A DNA stretch of 64,000 nucleotides from NCBI GenBank assembly GCA_026391005.1, contig JAPLEV010000051.1:1-64000 (forward strand), written 5' to 3'. The number at the start of each line of letters is the position of its first letter. Position 1 is the first letter of the stretch. The notes under the pieces are model-generated. The model made no database searches. It was not told the DNA's origin and saw nothing but the letters and a program-made list of their open reading frames with translations. Source of the stretch: Flavobacteriia bacterium. Its GTDB lineage: Bacteria > Bacteroidota > Bacteroidia > Flavobacteriales_D > Crocinitomicaceae. Shown here piece after piece: positions 53,995 to 60,879 of this stretch. A program made the position numbers and the translations under genes.

Positions 53995-54401
53995 TGCATA
54001 TACCTCCCCTAAAAATACAAGTCCGATTTTCCGACCTCGATATTCTTGGTCATGTCAACAATGTTATCTATTTAAGCTATTTTGAAATGGCAAGAATACA
54101 CTATTTCACCGCTTTAGTTGGCCCTGAATGGGATTGGTTAAAACAAGGCGTATTACTAGTTAAAAATGAGGTGGAATATCATATTCCTATTTTATTACAC
54201 GATAAGCCAATAATTTCTCTTTTTGTTGAAAAAATTGGTAACAAAAGTTTTTCTTTAGGTTATAAAATTATGATAAACGAGAAACTACATACTACAGGAG
54301 GTTCAACCTTAGTATGTTTTGATAGTACGATTCAACAATCCATTGCCATTCCACCAATCATGCGTGAGGGACTCTCAAAACTTATAAAAGATGAAAATTA
54401 A
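53994..54401 (+). CDS. Acyl-CoA thioesterase, hot-dog (4HBT) fold
   Basis: 'QVRFSDLDILGHVNNVIYLSYFEMARI'. Confidence 0.9.
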   Translation: MHIPPLKIQVRFSDLDILGHVNNVIYLSYFEMARIHYFTALVGPEWDWLKQGVLLVKNEVEYHIPILLHDKPIISLFVEKIGNKSFSLGYKIMINEKLHTTGGSTLVCFDSTIQQSIAIPPIMREGLSKLIKDEN

Positions 54402-55419
54402 AATCATTGTTTGTTTAAGTTACCTGCTTGTTACGAGTAGTTTAGTTGGACAAAAACAAGGAACTTGTTATGCAAAAAAAAGAATGTGCGACCGTAGGGT
54501 ATACATTGATGCCTACGATAAAATAGCTTTCGATGAAGAATCTGAAACTTATTTATTGAAATCAGATTACAGAACACGCTTTGAAGGAACTTGTGAGACT
54601 TGCTACCGAAATAACGTACTAATGGAAAGGATTACCATAAAAAACGGAAAAAGAGATGGTTCCGATACGTCTTTCTTTAAATCCGGATGCATACAATCGA
54701 TACAAAGCCATACCTTGGGTATTAAAAATGGTAAATTCCTTGTTTTCTACGATAGTACGGGAAGAATAGCAAGCGAAAGTAATTATTTAGCGGGCAAAAA
54801 AAATGGGGAATTTGTGAATTTTGAGGTCAATGGTGATAGTATTGAAAGCGAAAATTTTATCAATGATATTAAAAGTGGTGAACAAAAAGAATACTATGTC
54901 GGTGGAAAAATAAGAAAAGTAGTTCATTATCAAAATGGATTACAACATGGTTCGCAAAAAACCTTTGATAAAAATGGCAAAATTGAAGTCGATCTCAATT
55001 TTAAAGAAGGAAAAAACCATGGTGTTTGGAAGTATTACCACTATAATGGAAAAGAAGCAACTATTCAAAATTGGAATAATGGATTAAAAGATGGACTCTT
55101 TTTATTCACTGATGATAAAGGAGCCTTAATGAAAAAGGAAAGTTATAAGAAAAATGTAGCAGACGGTGAGTTCATTGAAAATTACCCAAACGGTAAATTA
55201 AAGCATCAGATTATCTACAAAGCAGGTGAAATAATCCGTGAGCAAAAAATTGATGACTACGGTAAAATCACCTACACTTTTGATAAGGCATTGAATAAAG
55301 CTAAAGAAAAAGAAGATAAGAAAAAAGCCAAAGATGGATCTGAGGACGACGAAATTCAAGATGTAATTGACGAGAAAGGGAAAAAAGGAAAAAAAGACAA
55401 GAAGAAAAAGAAGGATTAA
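54391..55419 (+). CDS. Secreted MORN-like/YwqK-type repeat protein with Lys-rich C-terminal tail
   Basis: Signal peptide; repeated 'NG...DG.f..yy.nGk...' units; tail GKKGKKDKKKKKD. Confidence 0.85.
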   Translation: MKIKIIVCLSYLLVTSSLVGQKQGTCYAKKRMCDRRVYIDAYDKIAFDEESETYLLKSDYRTRFEGTCETCYRNNVLMERITIKNGKRDGSDTSFFKSGCIQSIQSHTLGIKNGKFLVFYDSTGRIASESNYLAGKKNGEFVNFEVNGDSIESENFINDIKSGEQKEYYVGGKIRKVVHYQNGLQHGSQKTFDKNGKIEVDLNFKEGKNHGVWKYYHYNGKEATIQNWNNGLKDGLFLFTDDKGALMKKESYKKNVADGEFIENYPNGKLKHQIIYKAGEIIREQKIDDYGKITYTFDKALNKAKEKEDKKKAKDGSEDDEIQDVIDEKGKKGKKDKKKKKD

Positions 55420-57363: not shown

Positions 57364-58545
57364 CTACAATAAAAGAAAATATGCGGCGGCAGCAGCACAA
57401 GAAGCCGCACCGCCCTCAGAATTGGCAATTTGGTGTTGAGAACTTGTGTACTTTCCGCTATAAATTTTCCCATTTTCAAAAGTTGCAACCTGGTGTTGAG
57501 AACTGGTATACTTTCCGCTATAAATTTTATTTCCCTCTATGTTTCCGATTTGGTGTTGAGAACTTGTATACTTTCCCCTATATATTTTATTTCCCTCAAT
57601 GATTCCGATTTGGTGTTGAGAACTTGTATACTTTCCTCGATAAATTTTCCCATTTTCAAAAGTTGCAACCTGGTGTTGAGAACTTGAATACTTCCCAGAA
57701 AATATTCGAGATCCTCGTCCTGAAGATGTAAAAGATCCCGTAGAATAAGATGGGGATGAGGCAGCTATTTCTTTTTGCTCTTTATCTATTTTAAGTGCAT
57801 TTTCTATAAGTTCATCTGCCAACAAAGCTATTATTTTTTCAATTTCTTCAGGGGTTTCTGTTGTTATTTCTAAAAATTGTGGGTTTTTTCTAAGTGTTTT
57901 TAAAAGATAATCTTCCTTGAATTTTACTGAAATTTCCTCATTGCTATAAATCTCTCTAAAAAGCTCTTTGTAGATACTTATAAAAAACTCTTTTCCATCT
58001 GAAGGAGTTTGGATTTCATCGCTATCCTCTAACTGTTTGTATTCCATAAGGTCTTCATCAATTTCATCATCTTCCTCAGAAAGTTCTCCCTCTTGTTCTT
58101 CAACAACTTGATTTTTAGAAACTTGCTGTTCATAAAGACCCGGAAATAATTTAGTTGCGATAGCTGTATTAATAATCAAAACTCCTGTGCCATAAGCATA
58201 CCAGCCCCACAACAAAGCCACTCTGTCGGAGAAATAAAACCCTAAACCACCAATGAACATCGTTATTATGAAGCTTCCAAATAAAAGAGGGATCAATTTC
58301 TTAGTATTTATAAAGGCAGAGATACAAAAAGCAGGACCCGAAATTAAAACCAAGTTGAGGTGAAAAGAATAACGTTGCATAAACGCAAAATCGTTCAACA
58401 AACTGAAAGTCTTATCATTTAGAAGTGAATATTGAATGGGTTCAAACTTCCACATAGGGAGAAGTAGGCTTATGGCCCAAGCAAGCATAATGAGCAGGCT
58501 ATAAAGCATTTTATTTTTAAACGGAATATGAATATTCTCTGTCAT
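57364..58545 (-). CDS. Membrane protein with C-terminal 5 x 20-aa repeat domain and hydrophobic C-terminus (beta-flower-like)
   Basis: TM segments in residues ~10-130, acidic linker, then (G/N)xIYxGKYTSSQHQ(I/V)xxxE(G/N) x5 and GAASCAAAAAYFLLL. Confidence 0.85.
   Translation of the reverse strand: MTENIHIPFKNKMLYSLLIMLAWAISLLLPMWKFEPIQYSLLNDKTFSLLNDFAFMQRYSFHLNLVLISGPAFCISAFINTKKLIPLLFGSFIITMFIGGLGFYFSDRVALLWGWYAYGTGVLIINTAIATKLFPGLYEQQVSKNQVVEEQEGELSEEDDEIDEDLMEYKQLEDSDEIQTPSDGKEFFISIYKELFREIYSNEEISVKFKEDYLLKTLRKNPQFLEITTETPEEIEKIIALLADELIENALKIDKEQKEIAASSPSYSTGSFTSSGRGSRIFSGKYSSSQHQVATFENGKIYRGKYTSSQHQIGIIEGNKIYRGKYTSSQHQIGNIEGNKIYSGKYTSSQHQVATFENGKIYSGKYTSSQHQIANSEGGAASCAAAAAYFLLL
57412..57711 (-). 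repeat. Five 60-bp in-frame coding tandem repeats
   Basis: 'ggtgttgagaact' recurs exactly every 60 bp in the lines starting at 57421, 57481, 57541, 57601 and 57661. Confidence 0.95.
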
Positions 58546-58917: not shown

Positions 58918-60879
58918 ATGTATTTAATTAAAATTATCAAATATAAATTCGGAAAAATAATTAGCAAAAAACCAAAGTTATTTTTGTTAATAATCTCACT
59001 CTCTTTACTATTATTCATCTTTTTTCTATCCCTTCTTAAATTATTATTTATAACGCAGAATAATGTTTCAACAATAGTTTTAGTCAAAGAAAATAAACCA
59101 AAATTATTTTTTGATTTTTTTTTAGAAACAATTAATATTGCTCTATCTCCTAGTTTGAGTGTTGAGAAGAATGCGCCATTGGGCACATTTATCAATATTA
59201 TAGCTGCCATTTGTGGCTTGATCTTTTTAGGTGCTTTAATTGGAATGATTTCTAATATTATAGAAAACAAAATATCTGATTTAAAAAGAGGGAAATCTGT
59301 TGTTATTGAAAAAAATCACTCCATCTTTCTTGGCTGGTCTAATAAACTTAAAACTGCTATAAAGGAATTATCAGAGGCGAATAGAAGTATGACTCATTCA
59401 AGTATAGTTATTCTAGCATTAAAGGATAAAGTATTTATGGAGGAAAACCTTCTACCAGAATTGCCTAAATGGTCAACTACTGATGTTATTTGTCGTTCAG
59501 GTGATTCAAGTGATTATTTAGATTTAAAATTGGTAAATGCAAGTAGTGCTAAAAGCATCGTTTTATTGTCTACTGATGATGCAAATAGTGATTCGATATT
59601 ATTAAAAAGAGCCCTTGCATTGCAAAGGTTTGAAAATATCACTTGCCCTATTATTATCGAAGTTCATTCTACAGATAATTCAGAAGCAATTAAATTAATG
59701 GATAAGTTTACTGTAATTCAGCCCAAAAACTTTATAATGCGCGTAATTGCGCAAACAATTAAAGACCCGGGATTAAGTAAGCTTTATTATGAATTACTTT
59801 CATTTAAAGGCAAGGAAATTTATTTTTGGCCACCAATACCTGAAAAAGATGACCATTCAAGGAATCCAATTTTTGAAGAAAATTTTGTTGGAAAAACCTT
59901 CAGAGAGGTTATTTTTAATTTTTCAACATCTTCTTTAATTGGAATTGTAAACAACGATAAAAGCAATAATAAAAAAGAAATAAATATTCTTCCTGATTTT
60001 TCAACGATTATTAAGAAAAATGACCAACTTATTTTAATAAGTGAAGATGATTCGACTATTGGTAAACTAAAGAATTTATTTAAGCCCATTGACTATAATC
60101 CACATATTCAAACTAATATTCTAAGTAAAAAGCAAGAAACGAAATACATAACATTAATTGGGTGGAATAGTTGGTCTCATGTTTTAATGGAAGAACTTAA
60201 TTTACAATTGGAAATTGGATCACAGATAGATATTATATTCAGTAATAAAATACAAAATCAACCAGATGAATCATTTTTTAGTAGTTACCAAAATATCAAG
60301 ATAAATTTAATACCTATCAAAGTCATAAACAAAGAGTCTTTAAGCCATGTGAATTTGGATAAAAGCAATTCTATTGTCATTTTGAGTTATCGCGATGATT
60401 TTGATATTCAAGAGGCAGATGCCATATCGCTCATGGCTTTTACGCACGTTAAATACCAAAGAGATCTAAATAAATTAAATTGTAATATTTGTTGTGAGTT
60501 ATTAGACCCAAAAAATCAAAAATTAATTGAAGGTAATCGAGACGATGAATTCATAACGGGAGAAGAGTTAATCGCTATGTATTTAGTGCAACTATCTGAA
60601 AATAAATATTTAAAAGAAGTTTATACTGATTTATTGGATGAAACTGGTGCAGAATTCTATTTAAGGTCAGCAGGTAATTACATAAATGATTTTGAATCAG
60701 AAGTTTATTTTGGTGAACTTGTGAATGAAGGCCTAAAACGTAATGAAATTGTGATCGGTATTCAAGATAGAAAATCTATTGACAATCTCTCAAGTTATAA
60801 ATCAATATTGTCTCCTAACAAATTAACCAAATTTAAACTAGGACCAGAGGATAAATTAGTAGTTATAGCATATAACTAA
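58918..60879 (+). CDS. CASTOR/POLLUX-type ion channel with RCK-like NAD-binding domains
   Basis: N-terminal TM helices, 'GTFINIIAAICGLIFLGALIGMISNIIENKISDLKRGKSVVIEKNHSIFLGWSNKL' and 'KSIVLLSTDDANSDS...IIEVHSTDNSEAIKLM' resemble CASTOR/POLLUX/DMI1 channel proteins. Confidence 0.85.
   Translation: MYLIKIIKYKFGKIISKKPKLFLLIISLSLLLFIFFLSLLKLLFITQNNVSTIVLVKENKPKLFFDFFLETINIALSPSLSVEKNAPLGTFINIIAAICGLIFLGALIGMISNIIENKISDLKRGKSVVIEKNHSIFLGWSNKLKTAIKELSEANRSMTHSSIVILALKDKVFMEENLLPELPKWSTTDVICRSGDSSDYLDLKLVNASSAKSIVLLSTDDANSDSILLKRALALQRFENITCPIIIEVHSTDNSEAIKLMDKFTVIQPKNFIMRVIAQTIKDPGLSKLYYELLSFKGKEIYFWPPIPEKDDHSRNPIFEENFVGKTFREVIFNFSTSSLIGIVNNDKSNNKKEINILPDFSTIIKKNDQLILISEDDSTIGKLKNLFKPIDYNPHIQTNILSKKQETKYITLIGWNSWSHVLMEELNLQLEIGSQIDIIFSNKIQNQPDESFFSSYQNIKINLIPIKVINKESLSHVNLDKSNSIVILSYRDDFDIQEADAISLMAFTHVKYQRDLNKLNCNICCELLDPKNQKLIEGNRDDEFITGEELIAMYLVQLSENKYLKEVYTDLLDETGAEFYLRSAGNYINDFESEVYFGELVNEGLKRNEIVIGIQDRKSIDNLSSYKSILSPNKLTKFKLGPEDKLVVIAYN

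Follow-up and report, generated by a model that had tools for sequence, protein, structure and literature searches.

Judged by its sequence, the protein encoded on the minus strand at positions 57364-58545 of the window, the whole 64,000-nucleotide stretch of a Flavobacteriia genome analysed here, belongs to the beta-flower family PF21786 (Tubby clan CL0395) and carries five repeat units. Since both the fold and its plug have already been published, a known family is recognised here and no new fold is described; the five-unit form with four transmembrane (TM) segments is a new variant of this family, and a rule linking petal number to plug, together with the homogeneity of the long loops within one protein, are additions worth following.

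Beta-flowers were described by Durairaj et al. (2023; PMC10584680) as shallow barrels that have four-, five- or six-fold symmetry and are built of 8, 10 or 12 strands; in many of them a C-terminal hydrophobic helix is enclosed. From the same work come the three Pfam entries made for the fold and placed in clan CL0395 (PF21784, PF21785 and PF21786), a semiconserved motif of the hairpin tip ([DNEQ]xxG), and the structural analogy with the Tubby C-terminal domain and the phospholipid scramblases of this clan, which likewise have a barrel around a hydrophobic helix and from which the beta-flower differs in that comparison by a circular permutation and shorter strands. The fold is also mentioned in the Encyclopedia of Domains paper. 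A literature search by family accessions returned no further paper on the three entries, and no experimental study of beta-flowers was found in the literature searched, where the fold is described from predicted structures only.

Gene organization and family assignment

The open reading frame comprises 393 aa and a stop codon, reading from an ATG at 58545 to the stop at 57364-57366, and all features given below lie on its strand. It begins with an N-terminal four-TM module (aa 1-137; 58135-58545), delimited by hydropathy and by a 36% identical free-standing paralogue, and continues with an acidic linker containing 18 D/E against 3 K/R (aa 141-185; 57991-58125). The middle region (aa 186-262; 57760-57990) is probably helical; searches of Pfam and NCBIfam gave it no confident family, and no Pfam family exceeded its cut-off there. 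An identity with the slr1658 superfamily for aa 178-260 was rejected, the NCBIfam score being 24 bits against a cut-off of 100 and the match lying in an acidic helical stretch. An S/T/G-rich linker (aa 263-279; 57709-57759) then leads to five adjoining 20-aa repeats (aa 280-379), which the PF21786 match and the unit count identify as beta-flower units 1 to 5: RIFSGKYSSSQHQVATFENG (57649-57708), KIYRGKYTSSQHQIGIIEGN (57589-57648), KIYRGKYTSSQHQIGNIEGN (57529-57588), KIYSGKYTSSQHQVATFENG (57469-57528) and KIYSGKYTSSQHQIANSEGG (57409-57468). The protein ends with a hydrophobic, alanine-rich tail, AASCAAAAAYFLLL (57367-57408), which runs to the last residue and is the proposed plug. The first-pass annotation, made from the DNA letters alone, had described N-terminal TM segments, an acidic linker, five 20-aa repeats and an abrupt C-terminus, all of which are present in this reading frame, and the unit that it quoted, NKIYRGKYTSSQHQIGNIEG, occurs verbatim in the translation.

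At the DNA level, the array was detected by Tandem Repeats Finder with a period of 60, 4.4 copies, 81% matches and a score of 268. The units differ from one another by 5 to 23 of 60 nucleotides, the smallest distance being that of units 2 and 3, and by 1 to 10 of 20 amino acids; any two of them also show 3 to 8 synonymous codon differences. Identical copies stacked up by mis-assembly would not vary in this way, so the array is a feature maintained in the gene. A decayed sixth unit in the S/T/G-rich linker was considered and found to be unsupported, since 18% of shuffles reach its score; five is therefore the supported unit count. The six-fold subtype of PF21786 calls for six units or twelve strands, and the window protein has five units.

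The repeats match PF21786 (Bflower_3, "6-fold beta flower") with 55.1 bits against a curated cut-off of 34 (E 8.9e-15), aa 281-378 being aligned to profile positions 1-98 of 125 with the tail outside the match; the resemblance to beta-flowers proposed in the first-pass annotation is thus right. With this family the window protein shares the unit sequence KIYxG...G/N, the period of 20 and the C-terminal hydrophobic tail, whereas it differs in having five units instead of six, an alanine-rich tail, and a four-TM module with an acidic arm in place of a signal peptide. Where the fetched sequence reaches the C-terminus, the periodicity and the hydrophobic tail occur together in nearly all relatives, so that homologs lacking both, which had been named beforehand as evidence against the assignment, were not the pattern found. 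The strict [DNEQ]xxG motif occurs in only two of the five units (NIEG in unit 3, NSEG in unit 5), but undoubted flowers carry it just as rarely (none in L002, L023 and L050; six matches in L003), so it does not discriminate.

The entry named for five-fold symmetry, PF21785 (Bflower_2, 5-fold beta-flower), resembles the window protein in that name and in its C-terminal hydrophobic tail, but in the members seen in this analysis the units number six and are 16-17 aa long, and the tails are rich in Phe; neither the window protein at E<=1 nor its own genome gave a PF21785 match. In the PF21785 matches (L047-L056, L059), the six sequence units disagree with the symmetry for which the Pfam entry is named.

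Petal number and proposed C-terminal plug

Flower reading frames were gathered from several hundred genomes, searched at the level of the class, the order and the genus. Units were counted by a fixed-threshold self-similarity chain with correction by eye in four cases (L044 to five; L046, L133 and L154 to six), and the counted set consists of the 94 flowers with an intact tail and a mean unit identity of at least 0.40, highly diverged flowers being left out as their units are uncountable in this way. A tail was called small-residue when its best 6-residue window held at least 5 A/G/S/C. Two points of the design bear on the result: profile A1, used in two of the searches, contained five-unit tails, although the matches L043, L044 and L045 came from PF21786 itself; and the tail rule had been noticed in part of the same sequences before it was counted in all 94.

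Six is the unit number in 84 of these 94 internally repetitive flowers; eight have five units and two have seven. A small-residue tail occurs in 8/8 five-unit flowers against 0/86 of the others (Fisher p 9e-12 for sequences not corrected for descent); there are 7 five-unit clusters against 71 others. The sequences are related, so the independent events behind this correlation may be very few. Read with this limit, the comparison of about 90 relatives suggests that petal number and plug size change together.

The nearest relative of the window protein is a C-terminal fragment in genome G004, ending in GGAATAAAAAAYLLLL. Secreted five-unit flowers of the same genus are encoded by two adjacent genes at L006, with tails GGGGCSAAASFLLLL and CGGMSFAAAAVACCL, and at L007, with tail GGDASGAAAAFLLLF. 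Like the window protein, these three have five units and small-residue tails, most of them ending in Leu/Phe; they differ from it in being secreted, in their loops (GTGYSAKQ, SSGYTV and TRKGYSDGL) and in lacking the TM module.

The pairing of five units with an alanine tail could instead reflect simple shared descent with no steric coupling of petal number and plug, an explanation to which the small number of five-unit clusters and the tail details shared by several of these proteins (GGMSFAAAAVACCL-type in L006, L043 and L090) lend some weight. It is confronted, however, with L044 and L045, which come from another family of the class and have different loops and different tails (TMTAAAAAVLVLL and MGGAVAAVIILL) that are still small-residue, and with the window's own genome, in which a second flower (L003), secreted and of six units, carries the bulky tail SLSITKIACLLYYIL. 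On balance, we regard descent alone as rather unlikely.

Several further observations were made on these relatives. L012 and L151 (genomes G056 and G468, of the same genus, g20) have seven units of about 20 aa with bulky tails, so a 14-strand flower may exist beside the published four-, five- and six-fold forms. L006, L016, L043 and L090 are closely similar five-unit flowers (CKVYSGSSGY..., tail CGGMSFAAAAVACCL) found in distant families of the class, a distribution that suggests horizontal transfer; in these proteins, moreover, unit 1 begins with a Cys and another Cys lies at the tail, possibly a disulfide that locks the plug. The flower at L007 adjoins a flower-like protein with six 16-aa repeats and the same leader peptide, which Pfam calls a Bactofilin (44 bits), possibly by mis-assignment. 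L039 (G217:C2) is a leaderless six-unit flower with a long C-terminal region that, by eye, appears to have a type IX secretion sorting domain at its end.

Likeness of the long loops within one protein

Identity between units was compared within and between proteins in 34 non-redundant flowers with 20-aa units, the long loop being positions 6-13. Within and between proteins, respectively, it was 0.71 and 0.36 for the long loop, 0.65 and 0.54 for strand 1, and 0.41 and 0.33 for strand 2, i.e. a difference of 0.35 for the loop against 0.11 and 0.09 for the two strands; the bootstrap 95% intervals for the excess of the loop over the strands are 0.17-0.31 and 0.20-0.32. The window protein follows the same pattern: pairwise, its units are 95% identical in the loop and only 43% identical in the stretch made up of the second strand and the turn. 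Its flower contains 12 K/R against 5 D/E, and each KYTSSQHQ loop has a Lys, a Tyr and a His.

Recent copying of repeats, without any selection for a symmetric binding rim, would be another source of such likeness, and in the window gene part of the loop DNA is indeed identical in all five units, and units 2 and 3 are only 5 nucleotides apart. Copying alone would homogenise strands and loops alike, yet strand 2 is nearly as diverse within proteins as between them while the loops are not, and we therefore think it improbable that copying accounts for the whole pattern. From this comparison we infer selection for equal loops within a protein, as would be expected of a symmetric multivalent rim.

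Membrane anchor and orientation

Hydropathy places TM1 at aa 13-32, TM2 at 61-80, TM3 at 84-104 and TM4 at about 114-134, the first three being clear and the fourth weaker (19-residue hydropathy 1.22). The free-standing 130-aa paralogue of the module lies elsewhere in the genome (G000:C3:1722-2117, L015) and has a stronger TM4 (1.74). Another free copy of the module gene is found in G457, and the module is absent from all other genomes among the 86 of the genus, in which its fusion to a flower occurs only in the window gene. Within this sample, the window gene is accordingly a lineage-specific fusion, by its sequence, in which a rare four-TM module is followed by an acidic arm, then by an orphan helical stretch, and finally by a flower of five units.

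With respect to orientation, two observations favour a predicted N-in/C-in topology, which would put the flower on the cytoplasmic side: the loop joining TM2 to TM3 has positive residues (NTKK/NPKK), and the paralogue's TM4 is clear. We hold this with moderate confidence. Were TM4 of the window protein, with its weak hydropathy, not to span the membrane, the three remaining helices would leave the flower in the periplasm, where it might act on cell-wall or outer-membrane material like its relatives, most of which carry signal peptides. Leaderless flowers exist in the group as well (L018, L022, L044, L045, L055 and L096), so either compartment is plausible for such a domain, but the paralogue's TM4 and the positive TM2-TM3 residues both fit the N-in/C-in arrangement, and a periplasmic flower seems to us unlikely, at about the same level as the copying explanation of the loops.

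Predicted fold and proposed mechanism

A single-sequence AlphaFold2 model of aa 262-393 has ten strands, mostly with pLDDT above 85 (mean 76.6, pTM 0.62), and five units with ten strands agree with a five-fold flower, given the published counts of 8, 10 or 12. Most of the tail has a pLDDT under 50, and the model does not place it. A two-row run with one six-unit relative is uninformative, with a pLDDT of 37.6 and a helix at 104-112 of the 114-aa fragment only below pLDDT 50. The first-pass annotation had proposed that five hairpin units could close a ten-strand barrel around a central tail, and that a predicted structure showing disorder or an unrelated fold would speak against it: the repeats are predicted as ten ordered strands, whereas closure and a central tail are not visible in the model and its nearest PDB structures are open OspA sheets. 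No PDB match by Foldseek had an E below 1e-3, and the best match among viral structure predictions gave a TM-score of 0.60 over 95 columns. Tubby was absent from the PDB sequence matches and from the 50 listed Foldseek PDB matches, a weak test as the query was a single-sequence model.

That the repeats form an open single-layer beta-meander, OspA-like or MORN-like, with the tail as a separate membrane anchor, is quite improbable in our opinion. In its favour, OspA is the best PDB similarity of the model, one viral match is a MORN-repeat protein, and one five-unit relative has MORN_2 as its nearest Pfam match. Against it, TM-scores to the PDB structures reach only 0.2-0.4, AlphaFold models of closed form were the basis on which the sequence family was defined (PMC10584680), and the repeat number is 5 or 6 in 92/94 flowers, near-fixed as a closed ring explains and an open sheet does not, near-identical tandem repeats being otherwise free to vary in number.

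We consider it fairly probable that the window protein is, as a whole, a membrane-anchored five-petal beta-flower with a small-residue plug and five equal loops. Its ten strands would likely form a closed shallow barrel, less wide than one of twelve strands, with the C-terminal helix likely as its plug; alanine and glycine would be used in this plug because the space inside five petals is smaller than that inside six, where the tails are bulky. With the acidic arm as a flexible tether, the four TM helices may hold this flower to the inner membrane on its cytoplasmic side. More speculatively, the five identical KYTSSQHQ loops could make up a rim with five binding sites for a ligand that is repetitive or anionic; by analogy with Tubby, a lipid head group or membrane surface would be the most likely candidate, otherwise a glycan or a protein, and selection would keep these loops equal inside one protein while letting them change between proteins. 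The protein is accordingly viewed as a putative multivalent binder at the inner membrane.

More tentative is the general statement that joins these elements, which we think somewhat likelier to fail than to hold: that petal number and plug co-vary for steric reasons, five petals needing Ala/Gly and six allowing Ile/Leu/Phe/Trp, and that an n-valent rim of loops, like that of a symmetric lectin or receptor, is carried here on a private four-helix anchor. If the petal/plug rule is true, a tail swap or the deletion of a unit breaks the fold unless both are changed, and the homogeneity of the loops predicts that the function is seated in them. As the membrane-anchored form fixes the domain at the membrane, the lipid-binding idea is directly testable with it.

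Genomic neighbourhood

A phage or defence role was considered and found to be unsupported, since tblastn against phages and PADLOC gave no match and PHROGs gave weak matches only. The neighbouring genes encode a TauE/SafE permease, a beta-eliminating lyase, a Castor/Pollux-like channel and a weakly Bestrophin-like protein, and give no functional hint. The channel gene, for a protein of the Castor/Pollux RCK type, lies at 58918-60879 on the plus strand and is divergently transcribed from the flower gene. At 54391-55419, also on the plus strand and 2 kb from the flower gene, a MORN_2 repeat protein with a Lys-rich C-terminus is encoded, which bears no sign of relatedness to the flower.
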